The notes below the pieces were generated by a model. That model saw only the letters and a list, made by a program, of their open reading frames with translations. It had not been told where the DNA came from and did not search any database. Positions 28,987 to 43,929 of a stretch of DNA of 44,109 nt are shown here, in pieces (positions within the stretch are counted from its first letter, which is position 1; each line of letters opens with the position of its first letter). Origin of the DNA: Deltaproteobacteria bacterium (lineage in GTDB: Bacteria; Desulfobacterota; GWC2-55-46); NCBI GenBank assembly GCA_016212705.1, contig JACREU010000079.1:1-44109 (forward strand), in the 5' to 3' direction. The position numbers and the translations under genes were made by a program.

Positions 28987-29015
28987 AATATATACAAAGA
29001 GGCTTTTTTTGTCAA
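28987..29015 (-). promoter_or_regulatory. Promoter and candidate operator of the brnT operon
   Basis: On the minus strand a perfect -35 TTGACA (29010-29015), 17-base spacer and -10 TATATT (28987-28992) precede the toxin gene. Directly over the -10 and the start codon lie two direct repeats, TATATTCAT and TACATTCAT (28971-28992), a plausible binding site for the RHH antitoxin. The rest of the 28973-29251 gap contains AT-rich sequence and the divergent promoter of the restriction-modification operon, but no convincing gene. Confidence 0.7.
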
Positions 29016-29215
29016 GGTCCCACCTGCGCGCTCCCATACGGGGGCAAAGCGCTTTTTGTACTGGATACGTAGTCTTCTCAAGTCTGACAGACGTGCCGAT
29101 TATACGTCCTATAATCTTTTGTTGGCAAAAACCATCAAATTTAATCCTGTTTACAGCCGCTTCCGCAAAACCTCCCTCTTGGTATGCGTCTTTTGAATTA
29201 TTACATATAGTCTCT

Positions 29216-29243
29216 TTAACATTCCCCCGTAAAAATCTATACT
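29216..29243 (+). promoter_or_regulatory. Promoter of the C-M-R operon with a possible C-box half site
   Basis: TTAACA (29216-29221), a 16-base spacer and TATACT (29238-29243) precede the controller gene. Only eight bases separate the -10 from ATG 29252, so the transcript would begin at or near the start codon. TATAGTC at 29206-29212, just upstream of the -35, equals a half site of known C-protein operators of the Esp1396I type; a clear second half site is not visible. Confidence 0.6.
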
Positions 29244-29251
29244 TTGCAGAC

Positions 29252-29479
29252 ATGAAAGCGCGCTCGAAGGACCAGAGGTGTGTCGCTCTCGGCCTTACAA
29301 TCAAAAAACTGAGAGAACAAAAGAAGCTTACTCAAGAGCAACTTGCCGAAAAAGCTGACATTCACACCAGCTACATAGGGCAGATTGAGAGAGGGATGAG
29401 ATATCCCTCTCTCAAAATTTTATTCAAGATTGCAGATGCGCTAAATGCAAAAATAATCGACCTTTTTAAAGAAGTGTAG
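29252..29479 (+). CDS. Controller (C) protein of restriction-modification system, HTH XRE
   Basis: This is a 75-residue helix-turn-helix regulator. C proteins bind as dimers upstream of their own gene and time expression of methyltransferase before endonuclease. The helix-turn-helix covers about residues 14-55 (TIKKLREQKKLTQEQLAEKA, then HTSYIGQIERGMRYPSLKIL), and the protein ends in a short dimer helix (IIDLFKEV). Length and lack of any other domain match C.AhdI/C.PvuII types. It lies 12 bases before the methyltransferase gene in the same direction. The ATG at 29252 lacks a ribosome-binding site and sits eight bases from the -10, consistent with leaderless translation known for several C genes. 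A longer frame from 29009 is rejected because it runs through the promoter. Confidence 0.88.
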   Translation: MKARSKDQRCVALGLTIKKLREQKKLTQEQLAEKADIHTSYIGQIERGMRYPSLKILFKIADALNAKIIDLFKEV

Positions 29480-29491
29480 CCGGAAGTTTTA

Positions 29492-30382
29492 ATGAATAAA
29501 AAGAAACCTAAGACCAAGGAATATCAACTCCCAGACGACTCACTTTCCTTTTATATTTCAGAGGAAACATCTGAATATGAAAAAAAGAGACCGTTCGCTG
29601 TCTATTATGACAACCCTGAACACTCCGTCCGTCTTCTAAAAGGTAATTGCATAGAAGTTTTAAATCAGGCACGAGAGAACAGCGTCGATCTTATCTTTGC
29701 CGACCCGCCTTACTTTCTCTCAAACGGGGGTATCACCTGTCACGCCGGGAAAATGGTCTCGGTAAATAAGGGCAAGTGGGACAAATCCAGGGGTGCTGAG
29801 GAAAACCATAAGTTCAATCTCGAATGGCTTAAAGCCTGCCAGCGTGTCTTAACACCAAACGGTACGATATGGGTATCCGGAACAACCCATATAATTTATT
29901 CGATTGGTTTCGCCATGCAGGAGCTTGGCTTTAAGATTCTAAACGACATCGTTTGGTATAAACGCAATGCTCCGCCTAATCTTTCCTGCAGATATTTTAC
30001 CCACTCTACTGAAATTGTCTTGTGGGCCGCCAAGGACAAAAAAAGTAAGCACTATTTTAATTACCCACTGATGAAATCTATTAACAATGGAAAGCAGATG
30101 CGTAATGTTTGGGAAATGCCAGCTCCCAGACGCGAAGAAAAAAAATTCGGGAAACACCCCACACAAAAGTCCTTGGAGCTTTTAGACAGAATAATTCTGT
30201 CTTCATCAAAAGAGGGCGATTTGGTGCTTGATCCGTTCTGTGGTAGCTCAACTACTGGTGTTGCGGCAGTATCGTTACAAAGAAAGTATGTCGGTATTGA
30301 TACAGAAGATGATTATCTTGAATTATCGAGAATGCGGCTTGAAGAGGCCATCAGTAAACCAAAAATATTTGCGGCTGTTTAG
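29492..30382 (+). CDS. DNA adenine methyltransferase, beta class (DpnA/GATC-like)
   Basis: This 296-residue SAM-dependent N6-adenine (or N4-cytosine) methyltransferase is the modification part of the C-M-R operon. The catalytic motif IV is DPPYFLSNGG (residues 71-80) and the SAM motif I is LDPFCGSSTTG (about 246-256). Catalytic-before-SAM order defines the beta class. The segment KMVSVNKGKWDKS just after motif IV resembles M.DpnA-type enzymes that methylate GATC, so GATC is the leading guess for the target. A GGAAG site precedes the start. The gene is strongly AT-rich, unlike the surrounding chromosome. It protects host DNA from the endonuclease encoded 10 bases downstream. Confidence 0.9.
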   Translation: MNKKKPKTKEYQLPDDSLSFYISEETSEYEKKRPFAVYYDNPEHSVRLLKGNCIEVLNQARENSVDLIFADPPYFLSNGGITCHAGKMVSVNKGKWDKSRGAEENHKFNLEWLKACQRVLTPNGTIWVSGTTHIIYSIGFAMQELGFKILNDIVWYKRNAPPNLSCRYFTHSTEIVLWAAKDKKSKHYFNYPLMKSINNGKQMRNVWEMPAPRREEKKFGKHPTQKSLELLDRIILSSSKEGDLVLDPFCGSSTTGVAAVSLQRKYVGIDTEDDYLELSRMRLEEAISKPKIFAAV

Positions 30383-30392
30383 ACGGTAGGCG

Positions 30393-31004
30393 ATGGAACG
30401 AGCAGAAGCTGTTAAAAAAATTTCACTACTTATAGGTAAAGACCTTAGAAAACTAGCCAATGATTATCAGGTTACAGTTTTTATAAATGGGAAAAAGAAC
30501 AAAGGATGGGCCGGGCATGTAATTGAACGGTATTTGGGGTTACCTATTAACAGCTCTCAATCACCTAATTTTGGCTCTTGGGAATTGAAGACAGTGTCAT
30601 TAAAGCATCTCGCAGACAAGAGCATTACGGTGAAAGAGACGATGGCAATAACAATGATAGATCCCTACAATATAGTAAGAACAGAATTTGAGGATAGCCA
30701 TTTATTGGCTAAATTAAAAAAAACTGTTATAGCCGCAAGAATTTGGGAAAATCAACTTGAGCAGTCATCTATTCTGCATTCCGTAAGAACATTTGATTTA
30801 GGGGATGCAGAGATTTATCAGCAAGTAAAAGCTGATTATAATTTAGTTAGAGAAACAATTATCAAAAAGGGGTTTTCTGCTTTGACTGGCAGAATGGGTG
30901 TTTATATTCAGCCTAGAACAAAAGGCGCCGGGCATGGCAGTATTACAAGAGCCTTTTACGCAAGAGTTCCTTTTCTAAAGAAAATAATCTTATCTACAAC
31001 ATAG
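30393..31004 (+). CDS. MutH/Sau3AI-like type II restriction endonuclease
   Basis: This 203-residue protein is predicted to cut unmethylated target DNA. KGWAGHVIERYLGLPINSSQ followed by SPNFGSWELKT resembles the E. coli MutH core (KGWIGVLLEIWLG and VELKT). Glu45, Glu64 and Lys66 match MutH Glu56, Glu77 and Lys79. The position of the metal-binding Asp70 is Asn59 here, with the same 14-residue spacing from Glu45; the gap to the ExK motif is two residues shorter. A C-terminal GVYIQPRTKGAGHGSITRAF segment resembles the MutH DNA-recognition part. MutH and Sau3AI act at GATC, which agrees with the DpnA-like methyltransferase. It is the last gene of the operon, nine bases from convergent dgt. Confidence 0.75.
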   Translation: MERAEAVKKISLLIGKDLRKLANDYQVTVFINGKKNKGWAGHVIERYLGLPINSSQSPNFGSWELKTVSLKHLADKSITVKETMAITMIDPYNIVRTEFEDSHLLAKLKKTVIAARIWENQLEQSSILHSVRTFDLGDAEIYQQVKADYNLVRETIIKKGFSALTGRMGVYIQPRTKGAGHGSITRAFYARVPFLKKIILSTT

Positions 31005-39109: not shown

Positions 39110-40129
39110 ATGTCAACAAAAACTTTCCCTCCGCCTGACAACGGGAGCGAAAATCTCTTTAAATTCCTTGGGGTTTCGTTAGCCATACACCTGGCGGCGC
39201 TCCTGCTTTTCTACGCCTTCGCGCCTTTGCGCGATACCCTCCTTAAGGCCATGCCTGACAAGGAACCTATCGTCGTCGATGTCATAGACCTGCCGCCGGG
39301 TAGCGGTGTTTCCTCCCTGCCTAAGCGTCCCTCGTTCTTTACGGACAGGAACCAGAGTGTCCCAAAGGAGACCTTCCCTGATGCGCGGGAGGCGAAGGGC
39401 CTGCTGATAGTCCCCCGGAGCATGCCCAGACCCGCTTTACCTTCCGCGCCTCCTCAGAATGGGACAAAGGGTGGCGGCGTCGCTTTAAGCCCCTCGGGAG
39501 GCGCGCCGCCTAAGTCCGCCGAAAGAGAGCCCCCCGGCAAGACGCTACCCGGAGAGGATACGGTCGCGATAAAAGACACCGAGGCAGGGAAACCTTCTGA
39601 TAAGCAAGCGGCCTTATCCGGCTCGTCTGCGGCCTCCGGAGAAGGCGCGGGAGTCGGAGCGGGAACCGGCAGGGGCGCGTCCGCAACCACACATATACAG
39701 CCCCCGAGGCCGAATCTATTTCTGACCGACGACCGGATAGCCGAGCTTGCGAAGGAGTACGAGACCGACGCGCCGAAGGGCGAAAAGGGCAAGACCCTTC
39801 AGCTAAACACCTCAGAACTCAGGTATCAAAAGTACCTTATCAATATGAAGTCGCGGATAGAATCCAGATGGGACTACCCGGATTCTGCGGCCAGGAACGG
39901 CTGGCAGGGTGTATTAAGGCTCGACTTCTCAATCAATAAGGACGGGACATTGAGGGATGTGAAGCTTGTGAAATCCTCAAACTACCCGGCGCTCGACGAC
40001 GCGGCTGTGACGGCGCTCCGCCTCGCGTCCCCCTTCCCGCCCTTCCCCGACGACTTCGGCATAGAAGAGATAAACATCAAGGGTTCGTTCGAATATGTCA
40101 TCTACGGGCCTCCACCGGGGAGGAGATGA
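39110..40129 (+). CDS. TonB-like energy transducer or TolA-like protein
   Basis: This 339-residue inner-membrane-anchored protein reaches across the periplasm. A short cytoplasmic N-terminus leads to one helix (about 19-38, LGVSLAIHLAALLLFYAFAP). A long Pro/Gly/Ala/Ser-rich periplasmic linker covers about 60-230. The C-terminal TonB domain (about 250-339) includes NGWQGVLRLDFSINKDGTLR and SSNYPALDDAAVTALRLASP. Such proteins transmit proton-motive force to outer-membrane receptors. No exbB or exbD is adjacent, so it is an orphan transducer, or TolA-like. The N-terminus MSTKTFPPPDNGSENLFKFL is consistent with ATG at 39110. The TonB box receptor partner is unknown. Confidence 0.88.
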   Translation: MSTKTFPPPDNGSENLFKFLGVSLAIHLAALLLFYAFAPLRDTLLKAMPDKEPIVVDVIDLPPGSGVSSLPKRPSFFTDRNQSVPKETFPDAREAKGLLIVPRSMPRPALPSAPPQNGTKGGGVALSPSGGAPPKSAEREPPGKTLPGEDTVAIKDTEAGKPSDKQAALSGSSAASGEGAGVGAGTGRGASATTHIQPPRPNLFLTDDRIAELAKEYETDAPKGEKGKTLQLNTSELRYQKYLINMKSRIESRWDYPDSAARNGWQGVLRLDFSINKDGTLRDVKLVKSSNYPALDDAAVTALRLASPFPPFPDDFGIEEINIKGSFEYVIYGPPPGRR

Positions 40130-40250
40130 GGGAATAACTCTGATCGGCTTGATTACGCTACGCTAACCCAGCCTGCTGGACCTTGTTAAAAACCGGCTCA
40201 AAGGTGTCCACATTTTTTACACAAGTGGAACCAAAGTAAATGCTGTAAAA

Positions 40251-40279
40251 TCAGCAAGTTAGTAGTTTTAACTTGCTGA
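40251..40279. promoter_or_regulatory. Inverted repeat, candidate enhancer site for sigma54 activator
   Basis: Perfect 11-bp arms, TCAGCAAGTTA (40251-40261) and TAACTTGCTGA (40269-40279), flank a 7-base spacer. They lie about 130 bp upstream of the sigma54 promoter. A half site, CTTGCTGA, recurs at 40342-40349. Direct copies of TTTTTTACAC are at 40213-40222 and 40302-40311. This fits an upstream activating sequence for a PrsR-type enhancer-binding protein. Confidence 0.6.
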
Positions 40280-40407
40280 AGGGTCTGACCAGCTATCAAC
40301 TTTTTTTACACTTGGAATCCATCCGGCATTCCCCAAGAAGGCTTGCTGAAAAAAATAAGCTTATAAAAACAGTGAGTTACACCCTAATGTGGTTTTGCCT
40401 TGATTCA

Positions 40408-40423
40408 TGGCACTATTTTTGCA
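40408..40423 (+). promoter_or_regulatory. Sigma54 (-24/-12) promoter of the PEP-CTERM gene
   Basis: TGGCAC (40408-40413), five bases, then TTGCA (40419-40423) match the RpoN consensus perfectly with the fixed spacing. The site is about 47 bases ahead of the ATG at 40470, with a strong AAAGGAGGT ribosome-binding site at 40457-40465. PEP-CTERM genes in several proteobacteria are known to depend on RpoN and the PrsK/PrsR two-component system. Confidence 0.9.
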
Positions 40424-40469
40424 CTATTATTTAATTCACATTAATAAAACGCTTACAAAGGAGGTTAAA

Positions 40470-41105
40470 ATGAAGGGTAAATCTCTGAAAATAGGCTCCC
40501 TTGTTGTTGCAACTCTGCTGTCCGCCGGGTTGCCGGCGTATGTCGGCGCCGTGACTGTCGACTTTGAGGGCGGCGCATCCGGCACAGCCGTGGGAAGCGA
40601 CTACTCGGGCTCAGGGGTAGTTTTTACGAATGCTTACTACACAACGGATTATGTGTCTCAAAACGGCTCCCAGACATGGGCTACCGGCGAGAAGAGCGGG
40701 CTTTACAATGGCGTTGGGAATGTGGCCATGTCCGGCTACTTTACCGGCACGACGGATTATATAACTGCCCAGATTATATATGCCGACTGGGCGCAGACCA
40801 CATCGTACCTTGATGTCTACGATTCCAGTAGCAACCTGCTTGCATCGACATCGCTCGCCAGCGCGAGTACGCCTTACAGCCTTACGATTAACACCCCGGG
40901 CATAGCGTCCTTTGTCTTCAGTTGGACAGGCGGCGGGTCCCCTAACGGATCAGGGGGTTACATGGATGACGTTATAGGCATCGACAACCTGGCCTTTAAC
41001 ACTGTTTCAGCTTCATCGGTGCCTGAGCCATCTACATTGTTGCTCCTCGGCAGCGGCTTGGCCGGTTTTGCGGTAGTAAGGATGAAGAGGTTCAGGAAGG
41101 GCTAA
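40470..41105 (+). CDS. PEP-CTERM sorted extracellular protein
   Basis: This 211-residue secreted protein starts with a signal peptide (MKGKSLKIGSLVVATLLSAG, with cleavage expected near VGA). The body (about 28-180) is rich in Gly, Ser, Thr and Asn and low in Lys, typical of exopolysaccharide-associated proteins; segments such as TVDFEGGASGTAVGSDYSGS suggest a beta-rich domain. The C-terminus is a complete sorting signal: VPEPSTLLLLGSGLAGFAVV followed by basic RMKRFRKG. An exosortase (EpsH family) would cut it and attach or release the protein. No exosortase gene is in this window. The ATG at 40470 is preferred over 40407 because of its strong ribosome-binding site. Confidence 0.92.
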   Translation: MKGKSLKIGSLVVATLLSAGLPAYVGAVTVDFEGGASGTAVGSDYSGSGVVFTNAYYTTDYVSQNGSQTWATGEKSGLYNGVGNVAMSGYFTGTTDYITAQIIYADWAQTTSYLDVYDSSSNLLASTSLASASTPYSLTINTPGIASFVFSWTGGGSPNGSGGYMDDVIGIDNLAFNTVSASSVPEPSTLLLLGSGLAGFAVVRMKRFRKG

Positions 41106-41135: not shown

Positions 41136-41177
41136 AAATAAACGCCCGCCGAATTTTCGGCGGGCGTTTATTTTTTT
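41136..41177. terminator. Intrinsic terminator, PEP-CTERM side
   Basis: AACGCCCGCCGAA (41141-41153) pairs perfectly with TTCGGCGGGCGTT (41156-41168), extended by flanking AT pairs and followed by T-runs. Outward A-rich sequence on the left may allow termination in both directions, which would also serve the convergent gene that ends at 41199. Its core is nearly identical to the terminator at 42573-42615. Confidence 0.93.
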
Positions 41178-41198
41178 GAAGAGAGGCTTTCGTCCGCG

Positions 41199-42572: not shown

Positions 42573-42615
42573 AAACAAACGCCCGCCGGAACTCCGGCGG
42601 GCGTTTGTTTTTTTT
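42573..42615 (+). terminator. Intrinsic terminator after the Lys-rich protein gene
   Basis: AAACAAACGCCCGCCGGA (42573-42590) pairs perfectly with TCCGGCGGGCGTTTGTTT (42593-42610), followed by a T-run. Confidence 0.95.
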
Positions 42616-42876: not shown

Positions 42877-43929
42877 TTAGTCCCGATAAATTGCTTTCAC
42901 CTTAATTAATTGATTTTTTCCTAAAGGGGTTAATTCACACACACGAACATCTTTTTCTTTATCATCCGATAGGCGTTGCTCAGTATGGCACTTAATTAGA
43001 CCAAGAGCTAAAAATTGAACTCTGATCGTCTGGAAGTGTGTTTCTGAAATAGAAGAGCCTGTTGCAGAATAGTCAGGATATTTATCAGAAAATTCCGTCT
43101 CGCATTTTTCTCTAAGGAATCTTGCTATACCAGATTTCATTTTTGTATCTTGTGTAGGATCAAGAAATTCTGGAGCAACTGAACTAAAAAGTTCATCCCA
43201 ACTAACATTAGCCGTATGCGTAATTCTAAATGTACGATCTGGGTCGTTCCATTTAGCTTTGTCTTTAGTAAATGTAACCTTAAAATCTAGGGACAAAGAA
43301 TCACTTCCCTGTGCCAGCTTTTCTGCTCCTTCAGGGGGAGTGATTCTTAAATGTTCAATTTCTTCGCTTTGCTTTTCGATTTTTTGAAGCAGTTCAACAA
43401 TCTGGCGATTCGCTTCTTCGGAGGCAAGAGAGCCAGCTCTTACCCACCCTTGAGCCGGGGTATTCTTTATTGCCAATGTCAAACCTACAATAACCTTTGC
43501 TTTTAAATCTTCTGGAGACTCCCAATAGGCGCACATATGTTTTTTTTCAACTTTATTTCGAAATGTTGCCAACTTGGACCATGCGCCTTCATCCGTTTCT
43601 GTTTTTCCACGAGGGAGATTATCTGGATTTCTATGCAGAAGAACTAAGACTGGTTTTTTACTTTTAGTTGCGTATTCATACTCCTTTTCTGTAAAACTAA
43701 TACCCTCCTCATCGAGGGAACCATAACGGCCACCAATTACTAAAACATAATAATCAGATGTGTCGATCACATCACAAATGAGGCGCCAAGCACTATCGTC
43801 AGAAGCTGGAAATAATTCCATTCCTGCTGGCATATGATTCATCTCAAGAATAGCTTTGAGAACAGCTTGGCGCTCATTCTTGAGATCCTCAAAAGTCGAA
43901 CTGATGAAAATTTGATATTTTTTTCCCAA
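42877..43929 (-). CDS. DUF4062 (TIR-like) domain protein
   Basis: This 350-residue protein has the DUF4062 signature at its N-terminus: MGKKYQIFISSTFEDLKNER, GMELFPASDDSAW, DYYVLVIGGRYGS and FTEKEYEYATKSKKPVLVLL (Glu81/Glu83). DUF4062 is structurally related to TIR domains, which in bacteria often make NAD-derived signals or deplete NAD+ in antiphage defence. A coiled-coil linker (about 170-200, IVELLQKIEKQSEEIEHLRI) leads to a C-terminal region (200-350) I do not recognise, which may be the sensor. GC drops to 35% in a sampled 60-base line (43141-43200), unlike its neighbours, indicating horizontal transfer. The adjacent sequence to 44109 holds only a small palindrome (GAAACTCAGTTTC, 44061-44073) and no further gene. 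Confidence 0.85.
   Translation of the reverse strand: MGKKYQIFISSTFEDLKNERQAVLKAILEMNHMPAGMELFPASDDSAWRLICDVIDTSDYYVLVIGGRYGSLDEEGISFTEKEYEYATKSKKPVLVLLHRNPDNLPRGKTETDEGAWSKLATFRNKVEKKHMCAYWESPEDLKAKVIVGLTLAIKNTPAQGWVRAGSLASEEANRQIVELLQKIEKQSEEIEHLRITPPEGAEKLAQGSDSLSLDFKVTFTKDKAKWNDPDRTFRITHTANVSWDELFSSVAPEFLDPTQDTKMKSGIARFLREKCETEFSDKYPDYSATGSSISETHFQTIRVQFLALGLIKCHTEQRLSDDKEKDVRVCELTPLGKNQLIKVKAIYRD

Follow-up and report, generated by a model that had tools for sequence, protein, structure and literature searches.

Floc and biofilm formation have been linked to PEP-CTERM proteins, whose genes are switched on by means that are only partly known. The type of switch has been recognized since 2006, and since then its PrsR site has stood as a prediction. 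Haft et al. 2006 (PMC1569441) described motif 1, a 17-nt sequence that finishes with TTTACA on its 3' side, is repeated in some cases and lies 32-92 nt upstream of a motif 2 of the -24(GG)/-12(GC) type, and proposed motif 1 as the site of the response regulator PrsR. That paper mentions neither IHF nor helical phasing. In Desulfovibrio vulgaris, DAP-chip with the PrsR homologue DVUA0057 enriched its five predicted PEP-CTERM targets (PMC3333781). The pepA gene of Aquincola tertiaricarbonis is RpoN1-dependent and has TGGCAC at -24 (PMC9850573). IHF-assisted looping at sigma54 promoters is textbook knowledge (PMC7175178, PMC4641369).

The locus studied here lies in a 44,109-nt stretch of DNA (the window), from a deltaproteobacterial assembly (G000) of 1.98 Mb in 122 contigs that is 86% complete. 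The features of the gene and its control region are listed in Table 1. The encoded protein scored 35.3 bits with PF07589 and 24.5 bits with TIGR02595 (cut-off 16), both above cut-off. Its start was placed at the ATG at 40470, which is preceded by AGGAGG; a longer frame from 40407 was rejected as the gene start because it begins within the promoter and overlaps it. The gene was assigned to a single-gene unit because an intrinsic terminator follows at its 3' side. The control region had no match to an RNA element in Rfam. It reaches slightly 5' of the start given in an earlier, sequence-only reading of this DNA, with the first PrsR-type site beginning at 40205.

Table 1. Features of the PEP-CTERM gene and its control region (window positions; distances are from the TGG of the -24 element).
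Feature	Position	Strand	Details
Non-coding control region	40130..40469	+	340 nt; separates the PEP-CTERM gene from a TonB-like gene (39110-40129)
UAS1, motif 1, predicted PrsR (enhancer-binding protein) site	40205..40221	+	TGTCCACATTTTTTACA; -203
IHF-like site at -159	40249..40261	+	AATCAGCAAGTTA, perfect IHF consensus WATCARNNNNTTR; between the two UAS; contains the left arm of the inverted repeat
Inverted repeat	40251..40279		TCAGCAAGTTA-N7-TAACTTGCTGA; arms 40251-40261 and 40269-40279, perfect 11 bp, 7-nt loop
UAS2, motif 1	40294..40310	+	TATCAACTTTTTTTACA, one mismatch to TGTNNANNNTTTTTACA; -114
Further half site	40342..40350	+	CTTGCTGAA, 9 nt; CCTGCTGAG / CTCGCTGAA in orthologues
IHF-like site at -41	40367..40379	+	AAACAGTGAGTTA, one mismatch; weight-matrix score 11.9 (threshold 8.4), outside the training set
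RpoN -24/-12 promoter	40408..40423	+	TGGCACTATTTTTGCA; perfect site
PEP-CTERM protein gene	40470..41105	+	211 aa; signal peptide and C-terminal VPEPSTLLLLGSGLAGFAVVRMKRFRKG
Intrinsic terminator	41138..41178	+	15-bp G+C-rich hairpin and T run

The G+C-rich hairpins at 41138-41171 and 42575-42600 have a common core, AAACGCCCGCCG, as if one terminator unit had been used twice. Elsewhere in the window, consecutive genes at 29009-31004 encode a helix-turn-helix (Xre-like) protein, a DNA methyltransferase and a probable restriction endonuclease, a series suggestive of a restriction-modification system that has its own controller protein. The protein encoded at 42877-43929, starting MGKKYQIFISSTFEDLKNERQAVLKAI, resembles DUF4062-type proteins, which are frequent in defence contexts.

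The sequence-only reading had assigned the gene an RpoN promoter and a control region of the PrsR type, and this was supported. The perfect -24/-12 site that it reported was located as TGGCACN5TTGCA, a sequence with a single occurrence in the 44-kb window against 0.01 expected; when the intergenic region was shuffled 5000 times, TGGCAYN5TTGC appeared in 10 of the shuffles. Perfect TGGCACN5TTGC sites were found 12 times in the genome and not once in the backward control. Three of these lie directly 5' of the three PEP-CTERM genes of the 1.98-Mb assembly that exceed the Pfam cut-off, each gene having its own perfect -24/-12 site. The RpoN part of the claim is therefore well upheld, as all three PEP-CTERM genes stand behind perfect sites and an RpoN gene is present in the assembly. 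Haft et al. 2006 gave 23-221 nt as the distance from motif 2 to the start codon; the 46 nt from 40423 to the ATG are inside this range, and the transcript is expected to start near 40434.

Two TTTTTTACAC repeats, also reported in the sequence-only reading and given there as a side note, are both present (40213-40222 and 40302-40311) and are the real candidates for the activator site. They are parts of a longer 21-nt repeat, and their 17-nt form is confined to the control region within the window. The repeat common to all three PEP-CTERM promoters of the genome was TGTCCANTTTTTTTACA; allowing up to two mismatches it occurred at five places, four of them upstream of these three RpoN promoters. 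By contrast, the nine other perfect RpoN promoters of the genome lacked motif 1 and had no high-scoring IHF site. Footprinting against two congeneric orthologues, L131 (in G003) and L136 (in G004), showed UAS1 to be identical in L131 and TGTCAATATTTTTTACA in L136, and UAS2 to be identical in both. Spacing was kept as well, with 89, 89 and 88 nt between UAS1 and UAS2 and 97 nt from UAS2 to the -24 TGG in all three species. A set of 101 PEP-CTERM promoters with -24/-12 sites was collected from related genomes; motif 1 was found in 72 of the 95 that were non-redundant, while shuffles gave a mean of 1.6 and a maximum of 6. Spacing between paired UAS copies had weak periodicity (118 of 5000 jitters). 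The two repeats correspond to motif 1 as defined by Haft et al. 2006 and predicted there to bind PrsR, and are likely the activator site.

Between the two motif 1 copies, the left-arm positions of the inverted repeat that survive in all three species spell AATCARNNNNTTA, a perfect match to the IHF consensus. The weight-matrix score of this -159 site was 20.9 in the window and 20.2 and 13.4 in the orthologues. It stands outside the standard register, with a UAS1-IHF gap of 27 nt vs 33-34, 43-47 and 52-56 nt. The site at -41, between UAS2 and the promoter, sits where the canonical register would put it given a UAS at -114. An IHF beta gene is present in the assembly (130.7 bits; NF001222 cut-off 115). 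No IHF alpha gene was found in the 86% complete assembly, and candidates of 110-112 bits occur in three congeners. At four other promoters (L082, L225, L190 and L003), a minus-strand IHF consensus is flanked by two copies of motif 1 and lies 31-32 or 42-43 nt past the start of the upstream one; these few cases may parallel the -159 site.

Prompted by the perfect consensus in the conserved left arm, we scanned the promoter collection for IHF sites. A perfect plus-strand consensus at -45 to -15 from TGG occurred in 28 of the 95 non-redundant promoters, while dinucleotide shuffles gave a mean of 0.21 and a maximum of 2 in 300 runs; on the minus strand, one promoter had a consensus in this interval. 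IHF sites clustered at -19, -29 to -31 and -38 to -41, and the starts of the last motif 1 at -67 to -71, -89 to -94, -100 to -105 and -113 to -117. The ~11-bp periodicity of the UAS and IHF positions was reached in none of 5000 jittered sets. With a leave-one-out weight matrix and a threshold at the 95th percentile of reverse-strand maxima, 47 of the 95 promoters had an IHF-like site above threshold.

An independent scan of 84,980 species for TTTACA, the IHF consensus and TGGCAYN5TTGC with free gaps returned 73 loci in alpha-, beta-, gamma- and deltaproteobacteria and a few other groups. Part of these loci are chance matches or other sigma54 systems. Among the 45 loci with GT at motif 1 positions 2-3 (canonical UAS), at least 29 are followed by a PEP-CTERM gene, and UAS-IHF gaps were phased at 10.5 bp (R 0.79), falling at 33-34, 43-47 and 52-56 nt. 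Phasing was also seen in the 34 loci outside the relatives of the window (R 0.81), and 0 of 5000 uniform draws were phased to this degree, whereas non-PEP loci without the canonical motif, an internal negative control, were unphased (R 0.21). The phase was not built into the scan, since every gap from 32 to 60 was allowed. In Methylococcales, L259, L276 and L287 have a sigma54 promoter and an IHF site before similar transporter-like proteins (MTKASLPTLPKTGLAGFKQNWRSDLLSGFL). Their upstream motif is a different one, so that they may form a separate RpoN regulon assisted by IHF. The order motif 1, IHF, RpoN was also present in records labelled as non-proteobacterial, namely L294 (Verrucomicrobia), L285 (Hydrogenothermaceae) and L307 (Aminicenantes), whereas the 2006 study had found no such arrangement outside proteobacteria. 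The protein encoded downstream of L294 ends in a C terminus that resembles a sorting signal (VPDGG type). In a full-text search, mostly of literature outside subscription, the papers that combined PEP-CTERM and integration host factor were on other subjects by title and abstract. The helically phased IHF element predicted at PEP-CTERM promoters is apparently undescribed.

No PrsR above cut-off was found in the 86% complete assembly, the best enhancer-binding protein having 452 bits vs 502.6, and no exosortase (EpsH) was found there either. PrsR was above cut-off in all four congeners and an exosortase was present in three of them. At the one locus checked in G003, PrsR and PrsK are near neighbours, close to PEP-CTERM genes; the PrsR locus of G004 also has a PrsT-type TPR protein.

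In the sequence-only reading, the inverted repeat about 130 bp upstream was the possible operator through which this lineage's RpoN activator acts. The repeat is real, and 128 nt separate the end of its right arm from the -24 element. Shuffling the 341-nt region gave a perfect inverted repeat of 11 bp in only 2 of 3000 runs, and NtrC-family enhancer-binding proteins do bind dyads upstream of -24/-12 promoters, both of which would suit an operator. However, a genome-wide search returned this one occurrence, and the exact arm TCAGCAAGTTA was absent from the other 100 PEP-CTERM promoters of the collection, in which four scattered arms with one mismatch were seen. Pairing decayed from 11/11 in the window to 7/11 and 6/11 in the orthologues, whereas both motif 1 copies persist. 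The sequence-only reading had held that absence of the repeat upstream of other PEP-CTERM genes would contradict the operator; the repeat was found ahead of none of those with -24/-12 sites, refuting it as a shared operator and leaving an operator role for the activator very improbable. Alternatively, the dyad and the half site at 40342 would bind an additional regulator that is specific to this gene and supplements the PrsR module. Its perfect pairing, with single-stranded DNA folding at -10.1 kcal/mol (z -6.4), and the second 9-nt copy are consistent with such a regulator, but the dyad is not preserved in the two orthologues and the left-arm IHF consensus accounts for its conserved part. CTTGCTGAA is present as the sequence-only reading had said, but it is changed in the orthologues too and has no support as an operator element; a gene-specific regulator is unlikely. 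As the terminator of the upstream gene the repeat is also unlikely, because a T run is missing on the plus strand and the stem is A+T-rich. The repeat is best read as an overlay on the -159 IHF-like site that is private to this lineage, and not as an activator operator.

The IHF-like sites at -159 and -41 might themselves be A+T-rich look-alikes in a region where IHF has no role. The consensus is degenerate and its two occurrences in the 44-kb window compare with ~1.5 expected by chance, and no IHF alpha gene was seen in the assembly. Against this stand the enrichment on one strand and in a fixed register, the phasing in distant proteobacteria with its negative control, and the lack of motif 1 and of a high-scoring IHF site at the nine other perfect RpoN promoters of the genome, which together make look-alikes improbable. 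Doubt of another kind comes from the missing PrsR and exosortase. If both had truly been lost, the region would be vestigial, its promoter a relic or served by another enhancer-binding protein, for which several NtrC-family proteins in the assembly (350-452 bits) could be candidates. However, motif 1 copies and -24/-12 sites are intact at three separate genes, and every congener retains PrsR. Missing contigs are the simplest explanation for the gap, because the assembly is 86% complete and falls 0.4-0.9 Mb short of those of its congeners; a vestigial region is unlikely.

Very probably, the region is a PrsR/RpoN-type sigma54 control region of the known kind with a helically phased IHF element. 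From the sites, their recurrence, phasing and conservation in the sequence, we infer the identity of the binding proteins, looping and activation. Phosphorylated PrsR, an NtrC-family activator, would bind the two motif 1 copies. IHF would bend the DNA between activator and promoter via the degenerate -41 site, and the strong -159 site, between the two activator sites, could provide a second IHF bend. The loop would carry PrsR to the RNA polymerase-sigma54 at the -24/-12 element, and the contact would open the promoter of the one-gene PEP-CTERM unit. Distances in steps of ~10.5-11 bp would be expected in such a loop because activator site, IHF site and promoter must share a helix face.

We also lean, with less confidence, towards a wider reading in which PrsR-dependent PEP-CTERM promoters across Proteobacteria would be three-part modules, in helical phase throughout, with an IHF site in one orientation between the PrsR site and the RpoN promoter, and in which a second strong IHF site in the lineage of the window may fold the PrsR sites together. 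The three-part module is strongly supported by the sequence comparisons; the second IHF site is suggested by three orthologues. What is new is that the earlier operator is replaced by motif 1, and that a predicted phased IHF element, missing from the original description, is added. The analysis names the bases that can be tested as PrsR site, IHF site and promoter, and removes a misleading operator candidate. The spacing tracks the DNA helix in many proteobacteria and therefore offers a simple rule to find and test such promoters.

Compared with the region described by Haft et al. 2006, the window has the same repeated 17-nt motif ending in TTTACA (compared with the wording of that paper rather than its logo), a downstream -24/-12 element, a long non-coding leader, a single-gene PEP-CTERM unit and RpoN. 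It differs in its incomplete assembly, which lacks PrsR above cut-off and an exosortase, and in a spacer of 97 nt to TGG against a published maximum of 92, the exact borders of the 17-nt motif 2 being unspecified in the text of the paper; a spacer of 96-97 nt recurs in congeners. The DVUA0057 regulon (PMC3333781, PMC4641369) likewise has a PrsR-type response regulator that binds upstream of PEP-CTERM genes with sigma54 promoters; it belongs to a different genus, and the likeness is one of targets and regulator type. The psp system (PspF and IHF), as cited in PMC7175178, has the same order of activator site, IHF site and -24/-12 element, with IHF bending the DNA for looping. Its activator and genes are different, whereas the candidate IHF element of the PEP-CTERM promoters recurs regulon-wide in a fixed orientation and phase.
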